Shown in pieces: positions 3,020 through 60,079 of a stretch of 64,000 nt of DNA. The notes under the pieces are model-generated. The model was not told where the DNA came from. It searched no databases and was given only the letters and a program-made list of their open reading frames with translations. The DNA is from Brachyhypopomus gauderio (taxonomy: Eukaryota > Chordata > Actinopteri > Gymnotiformes > Hypopomidae). Within the stretch, counting starts at the first letter, position 1. Each line of letters begins with the position of its first letter. The DNA is taken from the NCBI RefSeq assembly GCF_052324685.1, contig NC_135213.1, forward strand, positions 1,825,146-1,889,145. The letters run 5' to 3'. A program made the position numbers and the translations under genes.

Positions 3020-3027
3020 CTCTGAAA

Positions 3028-4289: not shown

Positions 4290-4295
4290 CGCTAG

Positions 4296-5829: not shown

Positions 5830-5889
5830 TCCAACATAAGACAGCTTCTTCAACATTTAACAGTGAGACATTTGAGATCTTCTGAAGAG
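5830..5889 (+). other. Candidate second exon (5' UTR) of zinc-finger gene (A)
   Basis: Sixty bases bounded by acceptor TTTTCAG and donor GAG|GTGAGT. Read in the phase required by the finger exon it contains a TGA, so it would be untranslated. The following intron (5890-6583) contains two imperfect AT-rich repeats with AACGTGATTTTCAA and no gene; it ends in the pyrimidine-rich acceptor TCCTCTAG at 6583. Confidence 0.4.
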
Positions 5890-6534: not shown

Positions 6535-8644
<2,110 letters not shown>

Positions 8645-8646
<2 letters not shown>

Positions 8647-8799
8647 ATTAAAATGTAGCTATAAAATGGTGCATCTGCATTTGTGGATCACGTTGTTTTT
8701 TTGTTCGTTTCCTCTCGCGCATTTTGGGGTTTGAGACTTTCCTTACGCATTTCTGCACCCGATCCACACACAAATGCACCACTCCATTCACAAAGGTGG
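8645..8799 (+). repeat. Left terminal inverted repeat remnant of integrase/HECT transposon (A)
   Basis: From AAATTAAAATG to CACAAAGGTGG this is the reverse complement, with few mismatches, of 16514 to about 16665 at the other end of the element. Only the inner half remains; the outer half, kept in copy C at 56766, was deleted together with the end of the zinc-finger gene. Confidence 0.85.
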
Positions 8800-8812
8800 T
8801 CGACAGATTACA

Positions 8813-9836
8813 CCGGTCAACAACTTTGGGCTTTGGGCTAGTTTAAGCTTCTGAGGGGCGGGTTTTACACAGATTTTGTGCGGGATATTTTTGTAGGACC
8901 TGGCAACCCTGCTCCCGCTACGTTCAGTGTTGAGCGCGTTGTTAAAGGAGAGGCAGCATGAAGCAACAGAAGCGGCAGAAAGGGGGTGCGGAGAAGTTGC
9001 GCACGAAGAAATTGAAGAGTCTCAATGTAGATGCTACAAAATGTGTAAAAATCACAGACATGTTCGCTGCTGTAGCCTCCGAGATCCTCTGTAGGTGAAG
9101 ACAGCAGCAGCAGACAGGGAGAGCAGCAGCCAGAGATGCAGGCTTGTGAAAGAGAAACGAGGGACAGACTGAGCGGGCAAGTGTAGTACGTAAGCAGGTA
9201 GTAACGTTAGGATAACACAGGGACTTTATTACATGAGAATGATGAGCAATGGCGATTGATTAGTATCAATATTAATTGGTATTTGCATACTTCCCAAAAT
9301 CTGGCAGCCACGCGCCCTTATTCTGATAAAATAGCAAATGGTCAAGACTGAGAAGTGTTGGACGAGCAGCAAGTGTCCATTTTAGGCTATCATAGCATTT
9401 TAGATATTTAGGTTAAAGGTGTGTTGAAAGGCTGTTATAGTAGTTTGTATTTGTAGCCTTTGCTGTGGTTCAACGTGTTTTAAAACCTCAAACAATTGAA
9501 ATTACAGATTTTAAAACTTATAAATGATAAATAAATTGCAAAAGATATACCCACACTGAATAAGAGTAAAACGGTGTCAAAAGACATTAGAAGAATTAGA
9601 ATTGAGCTGTTATATCAGAGATATTCAGAAAATACATATTAGAGATGATAATATGCTAAGATTAATTAACGCTAAGATTGAATCCAATGACTTTAACCAG
9701 TAATTTTTTTAATTAATTTTTTCTACGTCATACTTCACATACATAAATTACAAGTCAGTTGTGCTCCGCTAATTATGAGGGGCCGGTCTAAACCAAAAAT
9801 GCCAGGGCCGATTTTTTTTGTCCCAGTCCAGCCCTG
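8813..9836 (+). mobile_element. hAT-like transposon remnant nested in the larger element (A)
   Basis: An ATG at 8958 opens a lysine-rich start (MKQQKRQKGGAEKL, TKKLKS) like the first exon of fish hAT transposases of the ZMYM1/DUF4371 type. The frame stops at 9096-9098; copy C keeps it open. The right edge (9777-9836, GGGGCCGGTCTAAACC to CCAGTCCAGCCCTG) matches the familiar fish hAT end that reads CAGGGCTGGACTGGGAC on the other strand. No matching left end or catalytic part remains. The interval 9100-9776 has no other gene. An AATAAA near 9530 could serve the fused zinc-finger transcript. Confidence 0.5.
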
Positions 9837-10113
9837 ACTACAACACATATCGTAAGCTGGTAACCAAGTAAAAGTTATATTCCAGTTAAATCAGTTCATT
9901 GATCACCATGTTTTTTTTGCCTGTTTCTGATGTATGATCAGCATATTTTACACCTTGACCTTGTAAGACTTGCTGTAATTTTGCCTCAAACCATCTATCA
10001 GACAAACTAACTGCTTTTTAGCAATAATAGAAAATGTTTTCTCTCTTTTTGTTAATTGTATTTCTGTTATGTATAAATTAATTGTTGTGCTTTTGTTGTT
10101 GCTCCATTTCTAG

Positions 10114-10944
10114 CAGCTGTTAAAACAACACACCCTGGAGAGATTATATGACCGGGTGGTACATGCTTTACAACAAACAACACTTGATGTTGATTATCTG
10201 GAGTTTGTATGTAGGCAAGAAATAGTTTTTCTTGATGCTGTGTCACAGAACATTCAAGTAACCCATGATGTTAAACAAAAGCTAAGAGAGCTACACAACA
10301 ATTCAGAGTTATAGAGACAACCAAGACCTGCGTCCTGTGGTTCAAGTTGAAAAAAGAAACAAGACTGGACGGCCCCAGATAATAATACCTACTGAACACC
10401 TTGCTCATCTCCTTGAAATTGGGCTGCCTGTAACTACAATTGCAAGACTGTTAGTGTCTCATGCTACTCTGTTCAGAAGAATGGCTGAAAACAACCTTTC
10501 CATCAGAGGAATGTACAGTACTTACACAGATGCTGAACTAGATGAACATGTCACGGACCAAAGAAACAATGCCACATGCTGGATATAGATTAGTAAAGGG
10601 GACTCTGGAAGCACAGGGACACCGACTACAATGGGATCGTGTCAAAGCATCAATGCATCGTGTGGACAGTCTAGGGATTTTGTCGAGAATGACACAATTA
10701 GGATGCATCATCAGGCGAACATACTCCATGCCCTGCCCCAAATATCTAGTACACATAAACCATAAGCTCATCAGGTAAACGGTCATTATGTGTATGAGAC
10801 ACTGCATAGTAGACATAGTAGTATTTTATGTATGGTTTTCTTGTTTCCAGTTTACTGTGTAGCTACCATTTAATTGTCCGTCCGTCTGTCCCCAACAGGT
10901 ATATTATAGTCATTTTTGTTGGTATTGATGGCTTTTCACGAAAG
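10114..10944 (+). pseudogene. rve/DDE-type integrase remnant (A)
   Basis: Blocks in order: an N-terminal helical part (QLLKQHTLERLYDRV), an HTH-like block (TGRPQIIIP, TTIARLL, FRRMAENNLSIRGMYST), a pre-catalytic block (GYRLVKGTLEAQGHRLQW, ASMHRVDSLGILSRMTQLG, RRTYSMPCPKYLVHI) and an exon 10899-10944 (YIIVIFVGIDGFSRK) with acceptor CAACAG and donor GTGAGC. This is the layout of the integrase-core proteins often found in fish genomes. The frame is broken at about 10315 and 10570. A 6-base deletion relative to copy B removes the first catalytic Asp (VHINHK instead of VHIDTNHK). The downstream D and E regions are absent. Non-functional. Confidence 0.7.
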
Positions 10945-11094
10945 GTGAGCAAAACATTTGCCATCATCTCAATTTTATTTACATTTAAATCAGCAATTCT
11001 AAGTCAGTCACTATAAATCAATCTCTAAATCATGATAAAATTTACTTCCTCTTTTAATTTGGAAAAAAACAACAAACTATTGTGTCGCTGACTT

Positions 11095-11790
11095 ACTGTG
11101 CATTCACACCGAAAGCGACGAGAGCGAGACGAGAGCGACACGGCGACCGGAAGTCATTCATTTTCAATGAGAGTGAGCGACACCCAGCGACACGGCGCAA
11201 AGTGAGTGATTCGAGCGATGCGAACAAGTTGAGCTTGGCTCAACTTTATGCAAATGAGCAGTGACGCGCGGCGGCGACTACCAATCAGAAAGTATGTTTG
11301 CACCCTCCTCCGAAACCGCACCTCTGACTTTGGTTCCTACTGATTATTTGTTCCGATTGCAAAATGGAGGAAAGATTAATAGTGGCTGTCTCTGGATGTC
11401 CCGCACTTTACGATGTTTATTTTTGGAGGGAATACTGTTCATTTGTTAAAAAAATCTGCAATAAATGAGCGTATACCCTATTATTGGTTATGATTTTTAA
11501 AATTCCTGTTTGATCTTCGGGTCTGGGGTAAAAAGTAAAAAAAAATACATAAACATTTTAGGTTTATATACTATATGTGTTTTATACACACACTATGTTT
11601 TATACACGCACTCCTTTATAATCGTGTGTCCTGTAATCAATAGATTAAAATAAATACTGCATCCTGCTTTAAAAACGTGATTTGCATATTTGTCACGTGC
11701 TGCATGCAGGCGTGATGTTGGACACGCCCCCACGCGACGCGATGCTGGCGACGGAGAGCGATTTTATCGCTTTCGGTGTGAACGCACAGT
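11095..11790. mobile_element. MITE-like element with MADF-start relic, PIF/Harbinger-like (A)
   Basis: The inverted ends ACTGTGCATTCACACCGAAA and, on the other strand, ACTGTGCGTTCACACCGAAA match over about 24 bases. Inside, an ATG at 11364 opens MEERLIVAVSG, then PALYD, the start typical of MADF-domain accessory proteins of fish PIF/Harbinger elements; the frame then degenerates. This suggests an internal-deletion derivative. I could not identify a clear target duplication. Confidence 0.6.
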
Positions 11791-11891
11791 GAGGCGCACA
11801 AATGTTAATAACAAGCCAATCCGTTTATATAAATTACTTTTAAATGATTTACGTGTGTTTTATAAGTGTTTTAAGTGCAGAAGTGCATTTT

Positions 11892-12090
11892 AAGCCTAAA
11901 TTCCAGCAATTTACAAACCTGAAACACAAAGCAATTTTAAAATTCGTCAAATGTTCATCCCCGTTTTTGAGGGGTGTTTCTATATACCACATATCGTTAC
12001 GCACAACGCTGCACAGAATGTGACGCGTCAAGTTTAAACGCTTCCGCCGTCCGCGGAGCTGCGCGCTACGGTCATTCGCGAAAGTATAAC
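11892..12090. repeat. Dispersed repeat, second member in the unit (A)
   Basis: Shares AAGCCTAAATTCCAGCA, the CCTGAAACACAAAGCAA block, GAGGGGTGTTTCTATA and a GCGAAAGTATAA end with 3929-4289. It is shorter, with a different internal CpG-rich segment. Confidence 0.6.
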
Positions 12091-12204
12091 TAGCTTTTAG
12101 CTTTATGGAGACGCAGAAAGGCATCGCTAAAAGGGAGAGCTCTTTTGTGATTTAGGAAGTCTGAATGTGGATCTTGTGTTTAAAAAATGTCTTTTTATAA
12201 AATT

Positions 12205-12573
12205 ATTTGTTCAATAACTATTTGTTCCGCCAGGATCCGGCTCAAATTAAGCCCTGGGTAGGCCAGATCCATTTTACAGTGAATACACTGCACTACGTTG
12301 TCCACCTTGCGCAGCGAAAAATGGTCCCACACTTTTGACATTTTTGCCCTTTTACGGACACCGCTATCTTCATTTTGCGCCATTTCCATCAAAACAAATC
12401 ACGCCGCCTTAAACCTGTGCGTCAGTTATAACAGTCCGTGTAAAACAATGATACCGGAGCTGCGCAGTAGTACAAAGCGGGATTTTAAATATTTAAAAAA
12501 GATGGTGACATATGCCTCGAGTATTTTTTGTAATCGAATTACTCGAGTTACTCGAAGAATCGTTTCAGCTCTA
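12205..12573 (-). mobile_element. hAT 5' end with truncated BED zinc finger (A)
   Basis: Read on the minus strand it starts with TAGAGCTGAAACGATT, a common fish hAT end. About 160 bases later MEMAQNEDSG leads into KVWDHFSL and CIHC, the first half of a BED finger (W and F aromatic residues and the first CxxC). The second half and the transposase are missing. Confidence 0.6.
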
Positions 12574-12659
12574 ATGTCAGATCAAGACATCTTGCACTTA
12601 CAATACATGAATACCTGAATACAAAATATAGACTATTGTATTAAATATATACAAACCAA

Positions 12660-15600
12660 AATTAAGTTTAAATCCATGTTTTAATTTGGCGATAGCAGAC
12701 GACAGGATATGTCTTGTAACTCCCGAACTAATTGCAGCATCCCCTATAAAATTGTAAAATGTTATAATAATGTTAATGTGCAAATTCACAGAAATTATTT
12801 TCTTCAGTTTTTTTTCTTAAATGAGTTTCCATATAACGACAAAGCGTGCTGTAACCTTAACAGTAACCACAATCACTGAGATTCGTAGAACACAGTGGTA
12901 TAAATTGCAGTGTTTAAAGGTTGACATTCTTAAATATTCAATTTTATATTTAAACCTATACCTTGAATGTGGCAGCGAAAAGGTGCTGCCCATCTGCTTT
13001 TCTGATGACTTTCCTTGTAAAAAGAAATGAGGGACCTATCACGCTCTTCATCATTATCCCTGGAATCCAACATCAGTAACAGAAAGGGTTGACTCTGTCC
13101 TTGTCGCCTCAGTTGCTCAAGGAACAGGCGAACAGTTTCCTTTTGGTCTTCAACTGTTTTCCATACTTGAGGAACACAAAAACAAGTTTAAAACTCATAC
13201 TTTTGTCTCTGCACAATATATCTAATCTTCAGTTTCAAGGCTGAGTGGTTTATTTATGCAAAAGCTGGCTTCCAATCAAAGCATTTTTTAAGAATGCCAG
13301 ACATAAGACAATATACCAATGTACATTCTTAAGCTTCAGACAGAAATATATATGATTAAGCATAAAATACCTTACATTAAGGTGTCCTTTGTGTTTAGAA
13401 CAAAGCAATGACTGTAAATCTATGCTTAAACTGGACACATCAACCACATTGTCCAGAAATGACTTTTATTCAGGCAGCTACTCTGATGACAGCATGTTTT
13501 TGTATGTTTTTAACATATTATTTTTTATCAACTCCAAGTTCCCATATACAGTTACATTCTCAACATCATAATATTATACTTACAATCTACTTCTGGACTT
13601 GAAGGAGCTTCTGAAAGAGAAGATGGTCCTGGGCGTTCCATGTCAGATATGCTGACAGTGAATGAACTTCAAACAAAAAATATGGCATTGTTCATGATAC
13701 AGTAAAGAACCACGGCATTAAACAAATAACTGCACATTCTAACATGTTTTTCCTGTTACCTGTGTTTTTAATGTTTTCCTTCGGATTACTGTACTTGTAG
13801 ATACCATGGGTCTGCCTTACAATTACGAACACTGGAATTGTCCTACACTGCAGTGACATTTTATGTACATTGTCCCGTTTTGGTCAGTTGCATGTAATTA
13901 CAGCACAAATATTTTTTCATACCCTGGAGACAATATTCTTTTCTTATTGGCTTGCAAGTGTGCAATGATTCTGTACAACAGCACACCCCAATAGCTGTTA
14001 TATCTTTTATAACTAAGCATATATTTAAACACATTAATATTACCTCTCTGCACAAACACTGCCATGGTAAGGAAGTACCGACATAGGGAACTCCTTCTGG
14101 CATATAGGACATATCTGCACAGAAATAGATACAATGCAAAAATACACATAAGAGGCATTTACAATTAAATGAAAACACATGTGAATAACACAAATAATCA
14201 GACAATATTACCCCATGGCTGCTTTTGGGAAGCTCAGTTTCTGTAGCATTTTCCACCAGCTCCTCTGAAGTCTCAAGCACTTCTCTGTCCTCCACAATAA
14301 CAGTACCAGTCTGATCCTTTAAATACATTAAGTTCATAGGGTTAAAATGTTCACACTCAACTGCAGTGAATACATATGCAATGAAGAGACTACAGGCTAC
14401 AAAAAAGCTATATTAAAAACTTCTAAGACTCCTACATGAACAAACTTTAGATGAACATGCTGGTCTACAGTTTACTAAAATCTTTTCCAAAAGTTTGAGT
14501 AAAATTAAGCAACTAGAGTCCCTGTTAAAAATATTTACTGTGATTTCATGCAACCACTGATTAAAAGCTGTTCATTTGAATTAAAGGTTTTTCTTGAGAT
14601 TACTTATTTGTTATGTAATGCTTTAGAATGTGTGGGAAATTTGATCTAAATTTAAACTGTAAAAAAAAAGCAGTGAACACACATGTTATAGGGGAAAAAC
14701 AAATTAAGTTAATAACAAAACACAACTAACATTTGTTGTTTGTTGACACTCTTCAGCATGTAGAGCCAACATTTGCAGTGGCATGGTGCTATTACAGCTC
14801 ACACAGGGAACCTGTGGCATTTTTGCAAATTCTGCTGTATGGAAGAGGCTCAGTGTCCATCTCCTCTTGTAGGGGCGCCAAAAACAAAACATTCTTGCCA
14901 CTGTTTGAAACAGAGCGAAGCTGCCGACCAGAGTAGCCTTCTGTGTCCATGGGAATTACTGAAAACTTCCTTTGGCCGTTTCCTCCTGGATTATAAAAAA
15001 ATATTGAGAACATAAACAAACCAAGGACACTAACAGTTTTACATCCTTTTTAAAAAACCCCTATTCATACCTGTTGCTTTGTAGAACATCCATCGTCCTT
15101 GAAGTGGGCAAAGTTTGAGAAACTCCTCCTCCAATAGTGTAACAATCTAACAACATATACAAAAATAAAGACTAAATAATCTAACGTGGAGTTTGTAGAT
15201 GAAACAGGTCTAACCACATATATACAATCAGAACTCCAAATTAAAATACCTTTCAAAATATCAAATGATATGTATCATATGTGTAATTAATTACCTCTTT
15301 ATGACTGAAGTCTTCTGGAACTGTAATCACCCTTTTCCTAACCCTGCACTGGCAAGTTCTAGTTCTTTTGAAGCCTTAGGGGTCAAAGAAGTAGGGGCTG
15401 GCAGGACATAAACTGTGAGGTCTGTGTGCTTGGATGAAATGGTCCGAGAAGAGCTACAAAACCGGCCTTTACCCTTTTTTGCTCCTGTTTTTGAATTAAA
15501 CATTAGGAAATTGCCTTTGAAAAAGAGACAACAGAGTGAGTCATTAGACTTGATTACTGCTGTTGGATACAGAAAATAATCCAGACTACAAATGTTAGTT

Positions 15601-16399
15601 TGCAAACTTAACATTTTATCTTACCTCTTTAAAGCCTGGTTGATTGTAGAAGTGGAGCTGCTAAGGCTGGTACTGCTGGATGAAGAAGCAGAGGTGTTGC
15701 TAGGAGACATAGTGGTATTAGCTGAGAAACATGGAGGCCTGACTGATGTGTTAACTGAGCTGTTACGGGTGGATGAAAACTCTCTTGAAAGGGCTGTAAC
15801 TAGGGCCTGAGCCATCGTCTCCACCATGTTCTGAAAAGCATATAACACTGTTAAAATGTCCATCCTATTATTATGTGAAACTGTGAATATGTTTGATGCA
15901 AACATCACTATATAAGGTTTGAACAACTGATTTTATTTGAGCCACCCATGTTCAACTTCCTAGTACATGATCATCTAAAAAATATCTGAGCTTTTTCAAG
16001 TTAATGGTGAACACAGAATGGCTTAACTTTCGTTACCAACACCTACTAACAGCTAGCATTATAGCATTACAAGTAATAATAATTAATTATTAATTCGCAA
16101 CATTAAAAAATCCCAATAATTAACAATTGGGTCTACATTTTTTTTTTGCAGTTACAACACAAATGTACAATACAAGTATGGGCCATGCAAATTTAAGGAA
16201 CTAATGCACTGGTTATTTTTGCGTTTCACTATGATAGCTAGCAGCATAAACGATGGAGTTAACCTAGCTAAAATTAGGCCCACTAACATGTTAAACAATT
16301 TTCATGTGTAAACATATGGTTTATTACATAACGACTACAGATGATTGTTTTGCTCACTGTAGAATTCTCATTTAATGATGATGAAGGTTGACTCGCCAT
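12660..16399 (-). pseudogene. Zinc-finger/HECT ubiquitin-ligase-like transposon gene, 3'-truncated (A)
   Basis: Minus-strand exons in order: MASQPSSSL (ATG at 16399, donor GTGAGC), a Ser-rich exon 15625-15830 (MAQALVTALSREF), 15300-15490, 15066-15115 (RWMFYKATGG), 14745-14985 (SVIPMDTEGYSG, SNSGKNVLFLAPLQEE, then CVSC...H...C), an acidic exon 14214-14318, 14047-14113 (CPIC...H...C), 13595-13660, 12965-13165 (VEDQKETVRLFLEQLRRQG, RSLISFYK) and 12660-12743 (GDAAISSGVTRHI). The two C-x2-C-x11-H-x3-C motifs fit RAD18-type ubiquitin-binding fingers. The last exons match the start of the HECT domain in fish G2E3-like proteins. The catalytic-Cys lobe is gone, replaced by repeats. Frame breaks near 15337 and 14840 confirm decay. 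Exon edges without stated sites are approximate. Confidence 0.6.
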
Positions 16400-16513
16400 G
16401 CCGCTGTCCTGGGTGTCTGACTGGTTGTTACTGAGCTGTAAGCTGGGAGCGCCGCCATTCACAACCACAGTGAAACTAAACAGCGCCCCTTGTGGTGGCT
16501 TGTTCACTTGTTG

Positions 16514-16872
16514 CCACCTTTGTGAATGGAGTGGTGCATTTGTGTGTGGATGGAGAAATGCGCAAGGAAAGTCTCAAAACCCAAAATACGCGAGAGGAAA
16601 TGAACAAAAAAACAATGTGATCCACAAATGCAGATGCACCATTTTATAACTAAATTTTTATTTTGAGACTTAAGCTTTTAAAAAATATGCAAGTAAATAT
16701 AAATGAAACATATTCAGTTTCACATACAAATTATGATGTATTTATAAAAGTTGAACAGTGTTTGTACAAATTTCAGGTTGTGAGACACAAAATGAAATGT
16801 ATTTATTTGTGAACAGTGAAATGTATTTGTGATATATGTGTAATTTGTGGATTATCATTTACACATTTGTAA
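16514..16872 (-). repeat. Right terminal inverted repeat of integrase/HECT transposon (A)
   Basis: This 359-base segment is the reverse complement, with few mismatches, of 56766-57110 in copy C, from CCACCTTTGTGAATGG to CACATTTGTAA. Opposite orientation on either side of the integrase and HECT-like blocks defines the element boundary. I found no target duplication beside it. Confidence 0.8.
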
Positions 16873-17617
16873 GGAGTTTTGAGACCAATTTCTGCTGACT
16901 TTAGATACACTGTCGAGCCAGGACTAACACACTGTGACACCTGTGAGAGAAATTATTCCTACATATCCAGCAACCACAGGCACTGGTAGAGTTTTATTGT
17001 CTCTCAGATCAGTATCTTTATTAATCTATTAAAACGGGAACAGTGATATTTTCACAGCAATTATGTAAATACATTTGGTTACATTGCATTTTTATTATTT
17101 TCCACTCCAGGCAAAAGTAATTGGGATCACATTTTCTAATATTTCATTTTCAAATTATGCTGTAGGTGTAGCTCATCATGAATACAGTTCTAGGCTGAAA
17201 TAACTTGAAAGCTCATAACTGTGCTCACATGATCTGTGGGTAATTTCCTGTTCCAACACATTTTGCGTTCACTCTTTTAAAAAGTCTTCAGAGACCTTTA
17301 TCCTTAACCAGGAACGATTATGATTTTTTTCTTAAACCAGAAGATGTCATGGGTTCTTCCATGAGCAAAAATGAAGTATTTTAATTGATACATACAAAAT
17401 ATGTTAAAACCATTTACACCCATACCACCAAGTCCTTTTATACAGTTTTGTTTTGTAGATATTGTAAGGAGGTTTTACTCAGTGTAAGGCCAACACTATT
17501 GTTAGTGTAACAATAAGGTGTTGTGTAAGTGAAAGCACAATACTAATGTAAATGCACACCCAAAGCCAAAGCACAAAATGCTGTTTGTGTGTGACTAAGT
17601 GCTTTGTGTTTCTGCAG
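16873..17617. other. Spacer before Ig exons, no gene seen (A)
   Basis: About 745 bases between the transposon end and the first Ig exon. I looked for a signal-peptide exon (ATG, hydrophobic run, donor) and found none. It ends in the acceptor of the Ig exon at 17617. Confidence 0.5.
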
Positions 17618-20183: not shown

Positions 20184-20189
20184 AATAAA
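20184..20189 (+). promoter_or_regulatory. Polyadenylation signal of the Ig gene spanning A/B
   Basis: AATAAA about 520 bases after the stop at 19664-19666, at the position equivalent to copy A. Confidence 0.55.
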
Positions 20190-28135: not shown

Positions 28136-28137
<2 letters not shown>

Positions 28138-28290
28138 ATTAAAATGTAGCTATAAAATGGTGCATCTGCATTTGTGGATCACGTTGTTTTTTTGTTCGTT
28201 TCCTCTCGCGCATTTTGGGGTTTGAGACTTTCCTTACGCATTTCTGCACCCGATCCACACACAAATGCACCACTCCATTCACAAAGGTGG
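28136..28290 (+). repeat. Left inverted-repeat remnant of integrase/HECT transposon (B)
   Basis: Same fusion junction to the zinc-finger frame as copy A (GAG|TAAATTAAAATG). Confidence 0.85.
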
Positions 28291-30462: not shown

Positions 30463-30902
30463 GTGAGCAAAACATTTGCCATCATCTCAATTTTATTTAC
30501 ATTTAATCAGCAATTCTAAGTCAGTCACTATAAATCAATCTCTAAATCATGATAAAATTTACTTCCTCTTTTAATTTGGAAAAAAACAACAAACTATTGT
30601 GTCGCTGACTTACTGTGCATTCACACCGAAAGCGACGAGAGCGACACGGCGACCGGAAGTCATTCATTTTCAATGAGAGTGAGCGACACCCAGCGACACG
30701 GCGCGAATAGACTCTATGCACAAAGTAGTCCCTACGTATTTCCGCCTAAAAACCAGCCAGTTTGCCGACTTCCGGTGCGGCGTTTTCAGTAGCAAATAGC
30801 TTGTTCGGTGGTGAGTGCGGTTTCTATTTGAACACATTTTACCATTTTTTTGTAAATGTTTTTTTCACAGTTGTTACCTATTAGCCCACAATTCTACTGA
30901 AC

Positions 30903-32723
30903 ATGAGCTTAAGACCGTTTAAAAAGCAGCGATGTATTGGCTCTACAGCAGAACATTGCTGTGTACCCCTGTGTGAGGCTTCTGCTAAGTACAATACTGT
31001 GCTTAGCTTTCATACTTTTCCGGTGGATAAAGATTTACGTAAAACATGGATTGTAAACATTCGACGGGACAGTTTTACTATTACCAACCATACAAGGGTG
31101 TGCAGTCGACATTTCCTTCAAGAGGATCTAATTGAACCACCAAAAACTAACGGACGTCGGACACTTCGCAAGGGAGCTGTTCCAGTTTTATTTCAATGGA
31201 ACAACTACAGTGTTCCAGTATCGAGACCAAGCGTTTGGCAAAGGAGAAAACGTCCATCTGATGAACCTCTGGGTGAAGAGGAACCAGTGGAAGAGAATCA
31301 CCTGTTTGAACATGACTATTGCGCTGTCCCCGATCCCGCAGCCCTTGATCTGGCACTCCAGCAGACTGATGAGCTGCGTGAAGAGGTAGAGAGGTTACGG
31401 TCTCAAATAGAAGATTTATCCGTAAGACAGCGGTTCTGTTTGAGGAGATTTGCATCTTCTGACGAAGACATACGCTTCTATACAAGGTAGGTTAAACGTG
31501 ATGTATGCATAGCTACCATACTCAACCAAGATACTGTATGTGCTTAGTCCTAATTCACGAGCAATACCCCTTTGATGTTTAAAAAGAGGGCTGCTTCCTA
31601 GTAATACAAAGTAAGCAAGTGTTCAAAATGGCTCATTCCTTGAATCAACCCAATACTGATGCAGAGGTTCTAGTTAAGAATAACTTTTTCCAGAAGCTGG
31701 TTTGAAGATGATTTAAGCCAGTGTTTTTTTTCTACAACACAGGTTTGCAACATACAACCATCTAATGGCATTTTGGAGCCTTATAGAACCATCAACGGGC
31801 AAAATGTTGCGTATCACCAGAGCAAGAGCGGCATCCAAGAAGAATCAAGACATCATTCCTTGTCCTGCAGTAAGTCTAATAAACTACATGAACTAATGTC
31901 ATTTCTAAATGATTTTGTTCACAGAGATAAGATTTATGCATCAAACATATTTATCATTTTCCAGACACAATCCCTGCAACCCATAGATGAATTTTTTTTA
32001 TTTATGAACTACCTCTCCCTGGGACTGAAACAGAGGGACCTGGCCCACAGATTTAACATCAGTCAATCCACTGTGAGTCGAATTCTGGTAACATGGGCAA
32101 ATTACTTGTACACAGTGCTTGGGGCTGTGTGCATATGGATGTCACAGAAAGCAACCAAGGCTCACCTACCAGAAGAATTCAAGGACTATGCAGATACACA
32201 GGTCATCCTTGATTGCACAGAACTGCGTTGTCAAACACCATCTTCTCTTCTCCTGCAAAGTGAAGTGTTCTCAAGCTACAAGTCTCATTGCACTTTCAAG
32301 GGCTTGGTTGGCATGGCACCTCATGGTGCTGTCACTTTCGTCTCTGCCTTGTACGCAGGTTCTATCAGCGACAAACAAATTTTGAAGGAGTCAGGGATTG
32401 TGCAGTTGCTAACACAAGAGATGGCCATAATGGTGGACAGAGGCTTTCTTGTGGATGACTGTGTGCCATGTAAAGTCCACAGACCTGCTTTCCTGTCCAG
32501 CAGATCCCAGATGCCAGCCTCTGAGGTCAGGGAGACACAGTCAATTGCACGACTTCGGGTTCACGTGGAGCGCCTGATACGCAGGGTGAAGCAGCACAAG
32601 CTTTTTGACACAGTTATCCCTCTGAGCATCACAGGAACTGTTAACCAGTTTTACACTGTTGCGTGTCTACTAGTGAACTACCAGAATGGACCTTTAGTAA
32701 AAGAATGGGCAAAAGGTCAGTAG
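30903..32723 (+). CDS. THAP-domain DDE transposase (ISL2EU-type), apparently intact
   Basis: Exons 30903-31486, 31743-31869 and 31965-32723; GT-AG junctions (GTAGGT, GTAAGT) join in phase and total 490 codons including the stop. Residues about 20-95 form a THAP zinc finger (CCVPLC, VCSRHF, KGAVPVLF) that would bind the element ends. A leucine-rich coiled coil (ALQQTDELREEVERLRSQI) follows near 150-170. Exon 3 has a helix-turn-helix (LAHRFNISQSTVSRIL) and a DDE_Tnp_4 nuclease fold with D320 (VILDCTEL), D395 (MVDRGF) and E439 (HVERLIRR). It catalyses cut-and-paste transposition in this family. No stop or frameshift is seen, so recent activity is plausible. Confidence 0.8.
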
Positions 32724-33563
32724 ACAAAGTTTACACACAAACAGCAAAGCAATTTAAAAAGTGAATCTATAAATATATAATTTAGAAGATACTGATGATA
32801 TTACATGTTTGTTTTGCTATTTAACTTTGATTACCAAATTGTATACTGTGTACTTATGGAGGAATTAAGACTAATTAGATTTACAGGCCTGCACTTCTGA
32901 CTATTCGATTTGTTTTAAAGTCAAACAGCAGCATTTGATATTACATATTACAAAAATATAAAAGATTTTTATTTACACACAATACTGTACAATCATCAAA
33001 TCTACTTATACAATGTTCTGTTCTACCCATGTATCAATACTAAAGTTTATCATTCAAATTAGAATGTTACTCAAAGTTCAAATATTACAAATAAACCTTT
33101 ACACACACCATTGCATGTATTTCTGTAGTATTATTCCCCATACATGTATGTAGTATTGATCGTACCTTAAAAATAATCAATGATTAAATGTAAGTTTTAC
33201 ATTTCATCATGTGTATTTTGAAGAAACAAAAGTAATTGTGTGGAAAAAATGAATAACTTGTGTACACATTATGAACTCTGCATTACATGAAAACATGTTT
33301 TATATGTTAATGAACTAAGAGGCAACAAAATAAACACTGAAACAATTCTTTCCTGATGAACAACAAAAACATGACATTATGTCATACAGGTAAACCAGGT
33401 AAGTATTTAACGAAACAGGATTACTTAACAATATAACCATTTTTAATAAATAATTAAGCGTACCAATAGGGGGGGGGGCCTTACTGGGAAGTCCTCAACT
33501 CTGGGCTTATGTGGTGTATCTACATATGAGCCATTATATCAACACATCTTTGAAGAAAGACAC

Positions 33564-35998
33564 TTATGCAGATAAATGTAAAAAAAAAAAAAATCTGACT
33601 TCTCTTATTGTCTTTCTCACTTGGCTATCAATGTGAATTCGCTCAATGAATATGTCATCATGTGTATAAACCACAAAGTCACACCATTTCAGCCCTGAGA
33701 TCAACAGCTGTCCCTGAATTTGCCAGTAATAGGCATGCTGGTGCTTCAGAGCAAGGGTGCCATTCATAGCACCAAGGTAAGTGCAGTCAACATAACTCCT
33801 GATATTTGGGCATTTAACCTCTACAAGGCCATAAGGTGGGTACTCTCTGGGATCATAAATGAGACCATCAGGAGAGGCCCCCAACCAAGGAGCATCTGGG
33901 TGTACAAGAAAACCACAAGGTGAGAAGTTGACATTTCTCAAGCCACAGTACTCTTCCACAGCAGCAGTCTCCATTGCCAGCCCCCGTCTCATGTCAGCTG
34001 TCTGGTGAGTGCCCTTCAAAATTCTTAGATTTTCTGCTGAACTCCACCCCCTGACGTGGCAAATCTCTCTGAAGCGTGAAGCTGTCACGCGTGGCTTCCG
34101 TAGTTCATGCCACTCTCGGGATGAACTCTGTGACCTTGTTGCCTTCTCAATCTGGTTAGCGATCTCAGGTGTTACTGCCAATGAAATCAGGTGTAACATC
34201 TCCTGCTCACTGGGTACAAATGTGCACTGAGATTGCTCAAGATGGTAGTCCTTCAATGGCAAAAGTGGTGGAGGTGGAGCATCCTTATGTCGTGTGATGT
34301 GCGGGGATTTCTTTGCTGGCTGCTGATAAGAAAGCACACTACCTGCTTGAACTTTACCAAAGGCTGAGTCAACCAATGGTATACCGGGAGACATGTCCAT
34401 TGTTGTAATCATCGGTGCAACATCCTTCTTGAAACCAGCATATACCTCTGCCACTCGAAGCACTGAAACATCAGGCAGATCCCCAGTCACAGCTTTGAAG
34501 ACTGTGCTCCTGCGTAAAACACAAAACAAAACAAATTCTACCAAGCACAGTCTGTGTATATGTTTTTACATTTGTTGTATTTTACTGAAATTCAAAGTCA
34601 GAATTAAAATGATATATATTTTATATCTTGCCTCACCTCCTCAGCCACTTTCCTCTCTTCATGTCTTGCTGAAACAATTGCCATACTTTCCACAGGGCCT
34701 GGTTTTATTCCCTGGCAATATAAAAATAAACAAAAACATGTAAATAAGGTAAAATTACTTAAAACTTCACTATTCAAAAAGTTTTCAAACAGGCATACCA
34801 TTGTTCGAGGTTTGTGCCAAGCCTGCTCCTTCTCTGTGCAGCTACGGACTGGAGGAACTGCATGTATTCCCAGCTGGGAATAATGTGCTGTCTGGTACAG
34901 TAAAGCAACAGCATGGTTGCATAAAACTGTTCCAGCAACACAAGAGCACTGACAGTGTGTCAAAATCACAGGCTTGGAGTCCTTTAACACAATCTGCAAG
35001 AGAATGGTAAATATACAAAAAAAAGACATACTGCATAGTAAGTGAACAAGTGATATGAGCTAAGTGAGTTATATGTAATGAATAATATTTCACACATCAA
35101 TAAGACAACAGATTATCAAAAACAGTTTAAAGCAGTTTCTTGAAGATTAAGGATTTGATTTCACAGTCACAATACAGAAATTCTCTTGTTCTACTCCCTT
35201 ATCAACACCATACCCTTTGTGTTATGTTTACTATATGTTTACAGGTTACTTTGTATAAATTCCTCCATCCTGAAACTAGCATCAACCTGATAATACAAAA
35301 AAGCTAAAGACATGGTCTTAGAGTTGGCTTATTATATTGGCACTTATAAGAACAGGATTATTTATTCCAATGGTCTTCAAGAAACTGTTTTAATCACATT
35401 AATAAAACATAATCAAATAATTTAGCTAAACTTTCTCTTTTATTCTGTCGCTAACTAGAAGCCTACTCTCAAACTGTGTGGCTTCTCCGTCTTTCTCATC
35501 GAACGATAGCATATCGCCCTTACGCTGACCTCTCCTGTCACCTGTTCTTTATTAGATACTGAGAAATGAAGGAAAACGCATGTGAATAACAACAGTTACT
35601 GAAATAATCAAGGTCATAGCGTTACCTCTGCTACAAAAACACTGCATAACCTAAATACTAATGTTAAGGTAAGGTTAGCTGACCCGCTAATACAACTTAG
35701 ACTTCACATACTTAGATAGCATCTTTTACCAGCAGTTTCAAAAGCTTGTTTGAGTTTTATTCCTGCATATAAAATGTAAGTATAGTAAAAGTATTAGTAA
35801 AGCCAACTAGGAACTTTGAGGTTCGAATAGCTAGTTGCCTAACTTACCTTCATAGTTGTCGATGTAGCTTGAGACATAAAGCTTGAAGCCTTTCTCTCTC
35901 TTGCTGGTCGAAGAAACCGATGTAATTCTAACGATCCGGTGAACGTCGTTAATGGTAAAATTTGGAAGGTCTCGTAAACACCTCGTGTAAAAAGACAT
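33564..35998 (-). CDS. YqaJ-type nuclease with SWIM zinc finger (ISL2EU-type accessory gene)
   Basis: Minus-strand exons: 35848-35998 (MSFYTRCLRDLP, donor GTAAGT), 34799-34993 (SWIM motif CQCSC...LCNH), 34637-34711 and 33564-34509. The last carries the YqaJ/RecB-like nuclease motifs WHELRKPRVTASRF, GLAMETAAVEEY, SPDGLI, LVEVKCP and YYWQIQGQLL, that is D...ExK plus the Q motif of the PD-(D/E)xK fold. It probably processes DNA during transposition, as proposed for the family; that role is inference. The C-terminus runs into a T-rich tract (FFFF) and may be altered. An exon between the first two could be missed. Convergent with the transposase gene. Confidence 0.7.
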
Positions 35999-36193
35999 CT
36001 TAATTAAAGAGATGTAGACCGGACGGCAGCTGCTGACGGCTCGTAACAACCGCTACCGGAAGAAAGTGGGCTGGCTCAGGTAAACCCGGAAATAGTGCGT
36101 GCATGTAGTCTATAGGCCCTTTTCACACTTCCGCATTTTTTCTTCCGGAAGCTCTCGTTGCAGGGTAAAGTTACTTCCGTTACACATTAAACA

Positions 36194-37138
36194 ATGGCAG
36201 AGTCCAATAACAAGAGCTTTTGCAGTGCACCAGGGTGCTCGATCTCGAAGCAAAAACAGTCGTATCTCAGTTTCTATGGTTTTCCGGCTGACGACGAGCA
36301 GAAAAGAAAATGGGTTTGTGCAATTAGGAGGGATGAAGGGGAAAACTTTGTGATACGGAGCATCTTTGTGTGTAGCCAGCATTTCACTGCTGCAGACTAC
36401 ATAGCAGGAAGCTCGCGGCTAAAAGTTGGTGCTGTTCCCTGTTACTGTTCCCAGTACTGTTACTGTCCCCGGTACTGTTACTGTTCCCAGTACTGTTACT
36501 GTCCCCGGTACTGTTACAGTTCCCAGCCGGTTTCAGTGGAACAGTTGCTGTCCGCGTTTGAAAGATCAAGCTCTCGGCTGGGAGTACACGTACGTCCGCT
36601 AGCATCTAGCTGTTACCCGCTAGCATCTAGCCCCGGTTCGCTAGCTTCTAGCCGTCATCCGATAGCTTCTAGCCGTCATCCGATAGCTTCTAGCCCCGGT
36701 CCGATAGCATCTAGCCCCAGTCCGATAGCATCTAGCCCCGGTTCGCTAGCTTTTAGCTCCGGTTCGCTAGCTTTTAGCCCCGGTTCGCTAGCTTCTAGCC
36801 GTCATCCGATAGCTTCTAGCCGTCATCCGATAGCTTCTAGCCCCGGTTCGCTAGCTTCTAGCCCCGGTTCGCTAGCTTCTAGCCGTGATCCGATAGCTTC
36901 TAGCCGTGATCCGATAGCTTCTAGCCCCGATCCGATAGCTTCTAGCCCCGATCCGATAGCTTCTAGCCCCGATCCGATAGCTTCTAGTCCCGATCCGATA
37001 GCTTCCAGCCCCGATCCGATAGCTTCCAGCCCCGATCCGATAGCTTCCAGCCCCGATCCGATAGCTTCCAGCCCCGATCCGATAGCTTCTAGCCCCGATC
37101 CGATAGCTTCTAGCCGTGATCCGATAGCATCTAGCTAG
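36194..37138 (+). CDS. THAP-domain protein with heptapeptide minisatellite tail
   Basis: Residues 1-85 are a THAP zinc finger: FCSAPGC, FYGFPADDEQKRKWV, VCSQHF and a VGAVP motif where GAVP(S/T)LF is usual. This is followed by a Cys/Tyr-rich repeat (YCSQYCYCPR, 30-bp units), a QPVSVEQLLSAFER segment, then about 25 heptads of the SPDPIAS type up to the stop. The tail is encoded by a 21-bp minisatellite kept in frame. No catalytic domain. Could be a binding-only relic of a transposase; expression is unknown. Confidence 0.55.
   Translation: MAESNNKSFCSAPGCSISKQKQSYLSFYGFPADDEQKRKWVCAIRRDEGENFVIRSIFVCSQHFTAADYIAGSSRLKVGAVPCYCSQYCYCPRYCYCSQYCYCPRYCYSSQPVSVEQLLSAFERSSSRLGVHVRPLASSCYPLASSPGSLASSRHPIASSRHPIASSPGPIASSPSPIASSPGSLAFSSGSLAFSPGSLASSRHPIASSRHPIASSPGSLASSPGSLASSRDPIASSRDPIASSPDPIASSPDPIASSPDPIASSPDPIASSPDPIASSPDPIASSPDPIASSPDPIASSPDPIASSRDPIASS
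36595..37136 (+). repeat. 21-bp minisatellite inside a coding frame
   Basis: About 25 units of GATCCGATAGCTTCTAGCCCC and variants. A shorter 30-bp repeat (TACTGTTCCCAG/TACTGTCCCCGG) lies just before at about 36436-36525. The sequence at about 36530-36590 returns inverted at about 37140-37245, so the array sits between inverted repeats. Confidence 0.85.
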
Positions 37139-37425
37139 AAAAGAGCAAGCTCTCGGCTGGCAGTACACCACGAACATCTACTAGTCGAGAGTTTGCTCTT
37201 TCAAATGCGGACAGCAACTGTTCCACTGAAACCGGCTCTGAAACTAGTTGTGATCCGCTAGCATCCAGCTCTGCTCGGTAGCATCCAGCTCTGACCATCA
37301 CTTTGCTGTCGACTATATTGGACACTGAATAAACAATAACACGTAATAACTTGGTGTGTGTCATGAACTTTATTGATACTGATGTAAACCAAACAATCAA
37401 TAGCTGACGTCCCTTGGCTTGCTAA

Positions 37426-37761
37426 AGCTGGGCGTACACTGTACGATATTTTAAATCATGTACTCGGCTCCAGCTCAAACTACGACTAAATCGCAGGGAG
37501 AGTCCGCTCGTGGAGCTGCTTCAACAGTGCGATACTCTCACGAGGAGCGATTTGAATTTCAAACATGTTTGATATTCTTGCGACGCTGCGATTTCTGATC
37601 GGGAGTTGGTCGTGAGGTGTGAATTGCTCCTCGTTTACCTGTGTAAACTATACGATGCACGACACGCGATTGAGCCGAAACTCAGCCCGATCGCAAAAAT
37701 AGTCGCACGAGTGAAAAATCGGCTGAAAATGGGCCAAAAATCGCACAGTGTACGCCCAGCT
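37426..37761. mobile_element. 336-bp MITE with TAA target duplication
   Basis: The ends AGCTGGGCGTACACTGT and, inverted, ACAGTGTACGCCCAGCT are perfect over 17 bases. TAA flanks both sides (37423-37425 and 37762-37764), as expected for PIF/Harbinger-type elements. It is nested inside the second ISL2EU-like element. Confidence 0.8.
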
Positions 37762-38860
37762 TAACCTAGCTAGATATTGTTAACTAAAGCTGTCAGTATC
37801 ATTTGTAATATTATAATATATATCATAATAATATAGACTGTTTTACCACTCCGTAGGATGACTAATGGAACCAGCTATACCTTAAATAATAGTTACCTAG
37901 CTAGTGCTAGCTGGTGTTAGCTTACCCTGGTATAAGTGAATAAATTATTCTACAAACAATTTGTAGCCACTATTTAACTTGGAACCGTTCGTTGTTGAAT
38001 GTTCTCCAACGATACTGGAAACGTATTTAAAATTCAGTCTCGGCAGCGACGACAGGGATGAAGTAAACACACGCTCCATGCTGAGGTGAATTGACAACAA
38101 CTATCTTCTGCGAGTACCGGAACTTGTTTTACCCGGCGGTGACGTATTTCCGTTTTGGGCCTATTGAGTGATTCGAGCGATGCGAACAAGTTGAGCTTGG
38201 CTCAACTTTATGCAAATGAGCAGTGACGCGCGGCGGCGACTACCAATCAGAAAGTATGTTTGCACCCTCCTCCGAAACCGCACCTCTGACTTTGGTTCCT
38301 ACTGATTATTTGTTCCGATTGCAAAATGGAGGAGAGATTAATAGTGGCTGTCTCTGGATGTCCCACACTTTACGATGTTTATTTTTGGAGGGAATACTGT
38401 TCATTTGTTAAAAAAATCTGCAATAAATGAGCGTATACCCTATTATTGGTTATGATTTTTTAAATTCCTGTTTGATCTTCGGGTCTGGGGTAAAAAGTAA
38501 AAAAAATACATAAACATTTTAGGTCTATATACTATATGTGTTTTATACACACACTATGTTTTATACACGCACTCCTTTATAATCGTGTGTCCTGTAATCA
38601 ATAGATTAAAATAAATACTGCGTCCTGCTTTAAAAACGTGATTTGCATATCTGTCACGTGCTGCATGCAGGCGTGATGTTGGACACGCCCCCACGCGACG
38701 CGATGCTGGCGACTCGGCGACGGAGAGCGATTTTATCGCTTTCGGTGTGAACGCACAGTGAGGCGCACAAATGTTAATAACAAGCCAATCCGTTTATATA
38801 AATTACTTTTAAATGATTTACGTGTGTTTTATAAGTGTTTTAAGTGCAGAAGTGCATTTT

Positions 38861-44628: not shown

Positions 44629-44742
44629 GCCGCAGTCCTGGGTGTCTGACTGGTTGTTACTGAGCTGTAAGCTGGGAGCGCCGCCATTCACAACCACAGT
44701 GAAACTAAACAGCGCCCCTTGTGGTGGCTTGTTCACTTGTTG

Positions 44743-45101
44743 CCACCTTTGTGAATGGAGTGGTGCATTTGTGTGTGGATGGAGAAATGCGCAAGGAAAG
44801 TCTCAAAACCCAAAATACGCGAGAGGAAATGAACAAAAAAACAATGTGATCCACAAATGCAGATGCACCATTTTATAACTAAATTTTAATTTTGAGACTT
44901 AAGCTTTTAAAAAATATGCAAGTAAATATAAATGAAACATATTCAGTTTCACATACAAATTATGATGTATTTATAAAAGTTGAACAGTGTTTGTACAAAT
45001 TTCAGGTTGTGAGACACAAAATGAAATGTATTTATTTGTGAACAGTGAAATGTATTTGTGATATATGTGTAATTTGTGGATTATCATTTACACATTTGTA
45101 A
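44743..45101 (-). repeat. Right terminal inverted repeat of integrase/HECT transposon (B)
   Basis: Counterpart of 16514-16872. The spacer that follows (45102-45844) again contains no recognisable leader exon. Confidence 0.8.
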
Positions 45102-45844
45102 GGAGTTTTGAGACCAATTTCTGCTGACTTTAGATACACTGTCGAGCCAGGACTAACACACTGTGACACCTGTGAGAGAAATTATTCCTACATATCCAGC
45201 AACCACAGGCACTGGTAGTTTTATTGTCTCTCAGATCAGTATCTTTATTAATCTATTAAAACGGGAACAGTGATATTTTCACAGCAATTATGTAAATACA
45301 TTTGGTTACATTGCATTTTTATTATTTTCCACTCCAGGCAAAAGTAATTGGGATCACATTTTCTAATATTTCATTTTCAAATTATGCTGTAGGTGTAGCT
45401 CATCATGAATACAGTTCTAGGCTGAAATAACTTGAAAGCTCATAACTGTGCTCACATGATCTGTGGGTAATTTCCTGTTCCAACACATTTTGCGTTCACT
45501 CTTTTAAAAAGTCTTCAGAGACCTTTATCCTTAACCAGGAACGATTATGATTTTTTTCTTAAACCAGAAGATGTCATGGGTTCTTCCATGAGCAAAAATG
45601 AAGTATTTTATTTGATACATACAAAATATGTTAAAAACATTCACACCCATACCACCAAGTCCTTTTATACAGTTTTGTTTTGTAGATATTGTAAGGAGGT
45701 TTTACTCAGTGTAAGGCCAACACTATTGTTAGTGTAACAATAAGGTGTTGTGTAAGTGAAAGCACAATACTAATGTAAATGCACACCCAAAGCCAAAGCA
45801 CAAAATGCTGTTTGTGTGTGACTAAGTGCTTTGTGTTTCTGCAG

Positions 45845-56350: not shown

Positions 56351-56765
56351 CTACATGGGATCTGCAGTAAACGGTAGTGGGAGACTCTGAGGACAGACGT
56401 TTGAACATTTCCTCATCAGCCATGAATGATTTTAGTTTACTTATGTTTTCACTCTCCATGGCCAGCAGGGTAACTGGAGTATTCACATGCATCGGTGTCC
56501 CTGCTTGGTTATGAATGATATCAGTTTGTTAGTGTAAATGTGGATCGGCACATAAGAGATAGTAGTTGGTAATTGGAATATGACAAACGTTACAGGATAA
56601 CAATACAGAGGCAGAGATTCTCACAAGTCTTTGATCTCAAGTCCAAGTCAAGTCCCAAATATTTGAATGACACTGCAGTCGCAAATCACTTTATAGTTGT
56701 AATGGTCTGTTATGTATGGAAAGAGATTTGTATATCTCAAAGAGATTTGAGATTTTCGAAACAGC

Positions 56766-57110
56766 TTACAAATGTGTAAATAATAATCCACAAATTACAC
56801 ATATCACAAATACATTTCGCTGTTCACAAATACATTTCATTTTGTCTCACAACCTGAAATTTCTTAAACTTTTATAAATACATCATAATTTGTATGTGAA
56901 ACTGAATATGTTTCATTTACCTTTACTTGCATATTTTTTAAAAGCATAAGTCTCAAAATTAAAATGTAGCTATAAAATGGTGCATCTGCATTTGTGGATC
57001 ACGTTGTTTTTTTGTTCATTTCCTCTCGCGCATTTTGGGGTTTGAGACTTTCCTTACGCATTTCTGCACCCGATCCACACACAAATGCACCACTCCATTC
57101 ACAAAGGTGG
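56766..57110 (+). repeat. Left terminal inverted repeat of integrase/HECT transposon, full length (C)
   Basis: TTACAAATGTGTAAAT through CATTCACAAAGGTGG, reverse complement of the right ends in A and B over about 345 bases with small indels. It shows where the element entered, about 430 bases beyond the zinc-finger polyadenylation signal. The matching right end for copy C is outside the window. Confidence 0.8.
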
Positions 57111-58457: not shown

Positions 58458-59939
58458 CAGCTGTTAAAACAACACACCCTGGAGAGATTACATGACCGGG
58501 TGGTACATGCTTTACAACAAACAACACTTGATGTTGATTATCTGGAGTTTGTATGTAGGCAAGAAATACTTTTTCTTGATGCTGTGTCACAGAACGTTCA
58601 AGTAACCCATGATGTTAAACAAAAGCTAAGAGAGCTACACAACAATTCAGAGTTATAGAGACAACCAAGACCTGCGTCCTGTGGTTCAAGTTGAAAAAAG
58701 AAACAAGACTGGACGGCCCCAGATAATAATACCTACTGAACACCTTGCTCATCTCCTTGAAATTGGGCTGCCTGTAACTACAATTGCAAGACTGTTAGTG
58801 TCTCATGCTACTCTGTTCAGAAGAATGGCTGAAAACAACCTTTCCATCAGAGGAATGTACAGTACACAGCAAATTCAGAAGTGTTAAATTTCCAGTGTTG
58901 GTGTTGCCTGTTAAAAATACAACACCAACAAGTGTTAATTCAACACTTGTTTACTCTAGATAGTGTTTTTTCCCCAAAAGAGTTGGTGTTATTCCGGGGA
59001 GTTAAATTTGTTTAACTCTGTATGGTGTTGAGTTTAAAATCAACACCTGACAGAGTTTCTCCCAGAATTCCTACGTATCCTATGTAGCTCACGCCCACCA
59101 AATTTTTTTATGTTTTAAAGCGATTTAAAGAGTATATAAACTTCAACTTTTAACACTATAGTTTTTTTCACATCAGAATATTTTGACGGCACCCGAGGAA
59201 GACAGACGGCACCCCAGGGTGCCGCGGCACCCTGGTTGAGAAACGCTGGTCTACAGCACAAGCAGTTTCAAGTGTGATTGTCGTCAGATTTTTGCTGCAA
59301 GTTTTAATGAGGTGTTTTAATAAAAATTGTTTTTGAACAAGAAAATGTTTTGTTGCATGTTTTAATTGTAAGTGACTTTAAATAATAATAGTAGAAACAA
59401 TGAAATAAGTTTAACACTGGAAAGAATAGTTTTAGTTACACTTACCAAGTGGAGTAAAAATAACACTTTAAGTGTTAAATGACCCCGAGTGTTAAATGTA
59501 AACAACACTAGCCAGAGTAACATTGTACACTGCAAGAGTTATTTATTAACACTATTTATTGTAAAATTAACACTGAAAATGTAACACTTCTATCAGAGTA
59601 AATTTTACTCTCTGTAGAGTGGGACCATATAAGCTCCCGAATAGTGTTAAAATCAACACTTTAAGTGTTAATATAACACTGCCAGTTTTACTGTGTACTT
59701 ACACAGATGCTGAACTAGATGAACATGTCACGGATCAAAGAAACAATGCCACATGCTGGATATAGATTAGTAAAGGGGACTCTGGAAGCACAGGGACACC
59801 GACTACAATGGGATCGTGTCAAAGCATCAATGCATCGTGTGGACAGTCTAGGGATTTTGTCGAGAATGACACAATTAGGATGCATCATCAGGCGAACATA
59901 CTCCATGCCCTGCCCCAAATATCTAGTACACATAGACAC
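58458..59939 (+). pseudogene. rve/DDE-type integrase remnant split by two insertions (C)
   Basis: Blocks as in B. The frame after RGMYST is cut by the TA-flanked MITE (58865-59695), resumes at CTTACACAGATG, and ends at VHIDT where the hAT element starts at 59940. The catalytic Asp codon is the last part kept. Confidence 0.7.
58865..59695. mobile_element. 831-bp MITE with TA target duplication (C only)
   Basis: The ends CACAGCAAA and, inverted, CACAGTAAA are flanked by TA (58863-58864 and 59696-59697); the empty site is visible in A and B. The interior is packed with AACACTT/AGTGTTAA motifs in both orientations, so it could fold extensively. A segment near 59190-59250 (GGTGCCGCGGCACCCTGG, GAGAAACGCTG) resembles another fish repeat nested within it. 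TA duplication suggests a Tc1/mariner-type mobiliser. Confidence 0.75.
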
Positions 59940-60079
59940 CAGGGTTTCCCCCAGGATTTCCTTGAAGGTGCGGTGGCAGGACCCCCCGGTTGGAAACCGA
60001 TAATTTATATCACGTTAATGATATCACGATATAACACAATTACACATGTTTCCAGTTATTTTCTTTATTTCCAACACAT

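Follow-up and report, generated by a model that had tools for sequence, protein, structure and literature searches.

The 64,000-nucleotide stretch of Brachyhypopomus gauderio DNA analysed here (NC_135213.1, positions 1,825,146 to 1,889,145; G000:C3:1825146-1889145; hereafter the window) raises the question of whether a ubiquitin-ligase-like gene can be a working part of a DNA transposon. A preliminary description of the window had reported inverted repeats of about 350 bp that enclose an integrase remnant and, on the opposite strand, a gene with two zinc fingers and the start of a HECT domain. As judged from its sequence, the window contains decayed copies of a cut-and-paste DNA transposon that were multiplied by segmental duplication. 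On comparison with the 796.5 Mb genome searched, we consider it very probable that this is an IS3EU/GingerRoot-type transposon in which a D-D-E integrase is paired with a convergent finger-HECT gene inside shared terminal repeats. The shared repeats, the two oppositely oriented genes inside them, the 6-bp duplications at two loci from two families and the recurrence of the pairing are all observed directly.

Two convergent genes between shared terminal repeats

The copies in the window (units A, B and C) are insufficient as proof by themselves because they are tandem segmental duplicates, and it is copies on other contigs that provide independent evidence. The window repeat has 32 matches in the genome. 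A copy on contig C14 (G000:C14:9066380-9079765) spans 13,386 bp, is bounded by 428-bp inverted repeats that both scored 100% identical to the end of the query, and terminates in TATGG...CCATA (TATGGAAAGAAATTAGTCTC.. in inverted orientation). The 6-bp target duplication GCAGAC is present on both of its flanks. This longer repeat has 34 genome matches, many of them fragmentary, and 20 repeat-bearing stretches around repeat matches were examined.

Inside the C14 copy, about 15 HECT exons read left to right (1249-6143 of the joined locus) and about 7 integrase exons read right to left (9404-6761), so that the two genes converge tail-to-tail. These exon limits are models from splice signals, partly scored, with the integrase exons unscored. 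The integrase matches the Pfam integrase core domain rva_4 (2.8e-67, above the curated cut-off), with helix-turn-helix matches below their cut-offs upstream of the core. No zinc-domain Pfam match was found in it, consistent with the lack of an HHCC motif. Three acidic motifs (HIDTNHK, RADQGGEN and VERLWRD) are present in its exons, and the spacing from the second D to the E is 34, as counted by hand in the uninterrupted frame of a relative filed under a sponge symbiont (L062). A third gene was considered at 10.4-11.7 kb of the C14 copy; seven reading frames tested there gave no Pfam match, and none is claimed.

The product of the C14 HECT gene matches Pfam HECT (PF00632) at 3.5e-17, with 63.5 bits against a cut-off of 23.9, and its catalytic-cysteine motif aligns with that of HUWE1, which is also the best solved structure for the domain (E 0.0088, very distant). 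These features indicate that the gene likely encodes a ubiquitin-attaching enzyme. It shares the domain, the catalytic-cysteine motif and a PF00632 score well above cut-off with the HECT ligases HUWE1, UBR5 and E6AP, and differs from them in its C2HC fingers, its location in a transposon and its very distant sequence. Two exact C-x2-C-x11-H-x3-C fingers occur in each of the C14 and C7 copies and in units A and C of the window, where chance gives 0.02 such patterns per base-shuffled 13.8-kb copy. We take this spacing to be that of RAD18-type (UBZ4) ubiquitin-binding fingers; in Pfam the fingers have only sub-threshold matches to XAF1_C and zf_C2HC_14, and no finger model reaches its cut-off.

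An exon-by-exon search found both genes, in the same order, in seven copies: those on C14, C7, C5, C20 and C38, and units A and C. Units A, B and C go back to one truncated insertion that was copied along with its surroundings; they are counted once, and the seven copies correspond to six independent insertions. The boundaries shared within the window, from which the preliminary description derived the association, are thus not independent of one another, the transposon parts of the three units being 97-99% identical in a self-comparison; its remark that the copies are broken and carry nested insertions holds. The C7 copy lacks the outer left end, and the C38 copy has the right repeat only within the 10 kb examined. 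In the C38 copy (L020 2393-2845), part of HECT exon H08 occurs as a tandem repeat with 64-bp spacing.

The same arrangement is found in a second family, about 50% diverged from the focal one. Its copy on C1 (G000:C1:42842715-42853091; 10,377 bp) has TATGG..CCATA ends (TATGGAAAGG.., TATGGAAAGGAAGC..), inverted repeats that are 99% alike over 222 bp, and TTTAAA (6 bp) on both flanks. It encodes an rva_4 integrase and a HECT gene whose C-terminal part matches at 1.5e-07; no Pfam match was obtained with any other HECT piece tested by itself. One finger with the same C-x2-C-x11-H-x3-C spacing is present, and the catalytic-cysteine motif is kept. Between the families, identity is 44-57% for HECT exons H09-H12 and H15 and 50% for the main HECT block. 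The copy with its immediate flanks (G000:C1:42842700-42853106) is centred in an AT-rich palindrome, which may reflect a target preference or chance.

Recurrence of the pairing and competing explanations

To place these copies in the whole genome, matches on one contig and strand less than 12 kb apart were merged into loci, using the best 150 of 184 integrase matches and all 139 HECT-domain matches, both searches scoring only the best candidates. Among the integrase matches listed, a locus lies within 15 kb of 49 of the 79 HECT loci, against 0.37 expected on random placement, and every one of the 49 linked loci is tail-to-tail. The pairing recurs in related but distinct elements, which makes the ligase seem a regular component of the transposon rather than a chance passenger. 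When integrase entries were assigned by hand to two classes, a listed HECT match was lacking near 31 of the 32 entries with a single exon and near 45 of the 94 split by introns (three of these 45 are the window units, which lack the C-terminal HECT exons). This difference suggests that the ligase is tied to an intron-bearing integrase subgroup and not to every member. Five loci (C26:3038802, C27:352831, C50:1226996, C19:12906757 and C2:28553926) form a close HECT group with no listed integrase within 15 kb, representing either a HECT-only family or integrases absent from the list. Conversely, a group of integrase loci that resemble one another, separate from the single-exon class, has no listed HECT match; it includes C2:29527207, C26:1792921, C14:1672322, C18:1305828, C14:16243245 and C9:25501880, among others.

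Several observations weigh against the proposed pairing, or against a selected role for the ligase. A target duplication flanks only one of the three focal copies that have both outer ends: the C5 and C20 copies, both internally rearranged, have non-matching flanks. Counting the second family, a duplication of fixed size, which the preliminary description had proposed to look for, was found as 6 bp in two of four such copies. The TTTAAA duplication of the second family lies between AT-rich flanks that are inverted relative to each other over 15 bp, and is for this reason weaker evidence than GCAGAC. Copies with shared ends and both genes were recovered outside the window, largely as the preliminary description had anticipated, but in damaged form: in each of the seven focal copies examined, one exon or more is broken or missing. 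No exon of either gene was found in the stretches examined on C4, C8 (20 kb), C18 (two) and C1, or at C20:5.92 Mb, C3:5.76 Mb and C3:1.907 Mb (2 kb only); some repeat copies are thus solo, non-autonomous or decayed. No copy with both ends was found whose repeats surround one gene alone, the pattern that would have spoken for separate elements, and some copies hold neither gene. The linked loci include mutual copies, falling into about six multi-copy families (6, 12, 5, 4, 4 and 4 loci) and 14 others when grouped by hand from shared scores. No listed integrase lies within 15 kb of 30 of the 79 HECT loci, and no HECT locus lies within 15 kb of 74 of the 124 listed integrase loci. For the whole HECT gene, pairs in which the ratio of nonsynonymous to synonymous change (pN/pS) is defined give values between 0.13 and 1.47. 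The selection signal described below is suggestive only, because the differences are few, the copies are decayed and all pooled comparisons share the C14 copy.

Two further observations concern these gene-free stretches. A clean left repeat end on C8 (L018 from position 288; TATGGGAAG..) has no exon of either gene for 20 kb inward and marks a solo or non-autonomous copy. On C4, a 36% exon match was discounted.

If the HECT gene were a passenger, captured once by chance in an ancestor and carried without use, its sequence should have decayed over the divergence between the focal and second families. Its N-terminal part is indeed unconstrained among focal copies, with a pooled pN/pS of 1.18 (11.3 synonymous and 43.8 nonsynonymous changes; five comparisons, all including C14), and the many integrase entries of both classes without a listed HECT match also suit a dispensable gene. 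The HECT domain, however, has a pooled pN/pS of 0.42 (21.7 synonymous and 30.3 nonsynonymous changes), and the integrase one of 0.32; single HECT-domain pairs give 0-0.72, with one undefined, and whole-gene integrase values reach 1.01 over usable pairs. The catalytic-cysteine motif is present in both families although the main HECT block has diverged to half identity, and the orientation is fixed at all linked loci. Because unused cargo should not be conserved over such a distance, we regard the passenger explanation as quite improbable.

Membership in another integrase-bearing class (Ginger1, Ginger2/Tdd, Polinton or a retrovirus-like element) is very improbable. The C14 integrase does have a weak match to Pfam rve (6.7e-05, below cut-off), and 6-bp duplications with long inverted repeats also fit Polintons. 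Polintons (Mavericks) carry polymerase B, packaging ATPase and capsid genes, and no Pfam match to any of these was obtained with the two products or the seven further C14 reading frames, which have no Pfam match at all. The sub-threshold helix-turn-helix matches and the lack of a zinc-domain match likewise speak against these classes. A viral origin was rejected, as the integrase and HECT profiles yielded no confirmed relative in viral contigs. One pattern-based scan of a bacterial and archaeal collection gave a single confirmed integrase relative (L062 2956-3291; 61% identical). Its contig, 3.7 kb long, belongs to a metagenome-assembled genome catalogued as a sponge symbiont of the genus Cycloclasticus; the integrase gene there is in several pieces, and no HECT-domain exon matched convincingly. 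A bacterial source was also rejected, the simplest reading being that the contig is probably host sponge DNA, and the relative is a hint of wide spread in animals.

The termini and the duplication length, in contrast, fit the IS3EU/GingerRoot type, so that the element, which the preliminary description could not place in a named superfamily, can be given a putative one. Excerpts of PMC10045372 describe TA..TA ends, usually 6-bp duplications and no HHCC motif for this group, and excerpts of PMC12730594 describe TAYGG..CCRTA ends and an alpha-kinase gene opposite the transposase in its fungal TET-bearing members. TATGG..CCATA ends and 6-bp duplications are found in the C14 and second-family C1 copies (the duplication is missing at C5 and C20), and the C14 integrase resembles a D-D-E transposase without an HHCC motif. 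Ginger1, by the corresponding parts of PMC2836005, has TGTNR ends and a 4-bp CCGG or CCGT duplication, neither of which is seen in the C14 copy.

That two separate transposons, one with the integrase and one with the HECT gene, became nested or adjacent by accident is the least likely explanation and close to negligible: the broken and nested window copies and the loci with only one listed gene would suit it, but six repeat-sharing insertions agree in order and orientation (C38 with the right repeat only, C7 without the outer left end), a single pair of ends and a single target duplication surround both genes in the C14 and second-family copies, and the tail-to-tail pairs far exceed the number expected.

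Degraded copies in the window

Each tandem unit consists of a C2H2 zinc-finger array followed by a transposon copy (Table 1). A self-comparison pairs window bases 1-8638 with 18730-27373 (99%) and bases 1-993 with 46990-47982 (99.9%). The inverted repeats reported at 56766-57110, 16514-16872 and 44743-45101 lie where they had been described, but the length of about 350 bp was too short when measured against the 428-bp C14 repeat, which moves the two right repeats and the left repeat of unit C to the limits in Table 1. All right repeats in the window lack the outermost 7 bases. The left-repeat starts of units A and B are truncation breaks against the zinc-finger array and not true ends, each fragment covering only positions 238-392 of the C14 repeat.

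As first described, unit A has an integrase remnant on the plus strand (10114-10947) and, on the minus strand, the HECT gene with its two exact fingers. Measured against the exon models from C14, unit A retains I1-I3 of the 7 integrase exons and H01-H09 of the 15 HECT exons, so that the 3' halves of both genes are missing. Two residues, including the aspartate, are lost at the first catalytic motif of its integrase, and the C14 copy has no counterpart of positions 11086-12573. Unit C extends past the end of the window, where its HECT gene and its right repeat (G000:C3:1896356-1896770) are located. The repeat at C3:1.907 Mb belongs to a further tandem unit, which has both genes outside the 2 kb examined there, with 93% identity for the integrase at C3:1910048 and 95% for HECT at C3:1913274.

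Table 1. Transposon-related features of units A, B and C (window coordinates; exons numbered after the C14 models)
Feature	Position	Strand	Remarks
Unit A left terminal inverted repeat fragment	8645..8799	+	Repeat positions 238-392; outer end lost
Unit A integrase N-terminal part	10114..10775	+	Helix-turn-helix region (domain call from C14); exons I1-I2; frame breaks
Unit A integrase exon I3 remnant	10894..10947	+	Exons I4-I7 not found in unit A
Unit A foreign insertion	11095..11790		Own inverted ends (ACTGTGCATTCACACCGAAAGCGA..); outside the element
Unit A HECT domain start	12655..13166	-	H09 12655-12744, H08 12960-13166; H10-H15 not found
Unit A HECT-gene 5' exons H01-H07	13582..15827	-	H01 15624-15827, H02 15295-15503, H03 15069-15143, H04 14731-14986, H05 14212-14316, H06 14043-14117, H07 13582-13653
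Second C-x2-C-x11-H-x3-C finger	14052..14111	-	CPICQKEFPMSVLPYHGSVC
First C-x2-C-x11-H-x3-C finger	14746..14805	-	CVSCNSTMPLQMLALHAEEC
Unit A right terminal inverted repeat	16479..16893	+	Outermost 7 bp (TATGG side) missing
Unit B truncated left repeat	28136..28290	+	Segmental duplicate of that of unit A
Unit B nested insertion	30707..38165		THAP, DDE_Tnp_4 and YqaJ genes; foreign to the element
Unit B right terminal inverted repeat	44708..45122	+	
Unit C left terminal inverted repeat	56756..57110	-	Fullest in the window; outer 18 bp unmatched
Unit C integrase exons I1-I2	58458..59940	+	Interrupted by an insertion at about 58866-59695

The 7.5-kb nested insertion of unit B encodes a DDE_Tnp_4 transposase, a YqaJ exonuclease gene on the opposite strand and a THAP gene, together with a second THAP frame that has a long repetitive tail; it presumably resembles ISL2EU-type elements. 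The zinc-finger arrays (6535-8646, 25270-28137 and 53471-55597) are built of near-identical 84-bp C2H2 repeats and differ in length between units, with open frames of 703, 955 and 708 residues. Similar frames are also found at 18048-18807 and 46297-47067 in the tandem units, the latter with weak immunoglobulin-domain matches below cut-offs.

A possible role for the ligase

A D-D-E transposase cuts at the ends of its element and joins them to a target, here one with a 6-bp stagger. In the focal element, this enzyme would bind the repeats, excise the element and insert it at such a target; the ligase would be made from the element, act in trans and aid its persistence. It could do so by ubiquitinating a host protein of silencing or repair, guided by its fingers to chromatin that bears ubiquitin or to stalled DNA, or by adjusting the level of the element's own transposase. 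We favour a host silencing or repair target: counter-silencing and repair help, taken together, have roughly even chances in our estimation, and control of the element's own transposase appears unlikely. Parts of PMC2836005 suggest that ubiquitin-pathway domains of Ginger elements may activate repair factors during or after transposition, and parts of PMC12730594 present the TET/JBP enzymes carried by fungal transposons as thought to aid escape from silencing. A ligase with ubiquitin-binding-like fingers would fit a repair or counter-silencing role.

The element shares with IS3EU/GingerRoot transposons an integrase-like D-D-E transposase, and with the fungal TET-bearing members, as far as the excerpts of PMC12730594 describe them, the carriage of further genes. 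It differs from these fungal elements in that the opposite-strand gene is a finger-HECT ligase instead of an alpha-kinase or a TET/JBP dioxygenase, and its inverted repeats of 428 and about 222 bp are a further point of difference from the group. Like Ginger1, it combines an integrase-type transposase with ubiquitin-pathway chemistry. In Ginger1, according to parts of PMC2836005, this is an OTU or Ulp1 protease domain at the transposase C-terminus that removes ubiquitin or SUMO, whereas here a separate opposite-strand gene is predicted to attach ubiquitin. Styx of Zymoseptoria is proposed in excerpts of PMC10853768 to derive from an IS3EU element and to have acquired extra coding sequences beside its transposase; Styx is fungal, and the words ubiquitin and HECT are absent from the main text of that paper. 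HECT is likewise absent from the main text of the coelacanth paper PMC4255032. A literature search, with Repbase and most subscription journals outside its scope, found no paper that joins IS3EU and HECT, and the integrase-HECT pairing is undescribed among the publications listed, as judged by titles and the beginnings of abstracts. Curated IS3EU entries with a HECT gene may exist in Repbase.

Tentatively, and at somewhat less than even chances, we propose that a subgroup of animal IS3EU-type transposons encodes a finger-guided ligase as a selected part, which would remodel host ubiquitin marks and so enable transposition or evade silencing. Such a ligase would parallel the TET/JBP enzymes of fungal IS3EU elements. 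If this proposal is correct, the fast-changing N-terminal part of the HECT gene would be the face that the element turns toward its host targets in an arms race. Whether or not it is, the element offers a transposon gene that is apparently able to attach ubiquitin, in an arrangement fixed across deep divergence, and for the annotation of fish genomes some predicted HECT-like genes may belong to transposons.

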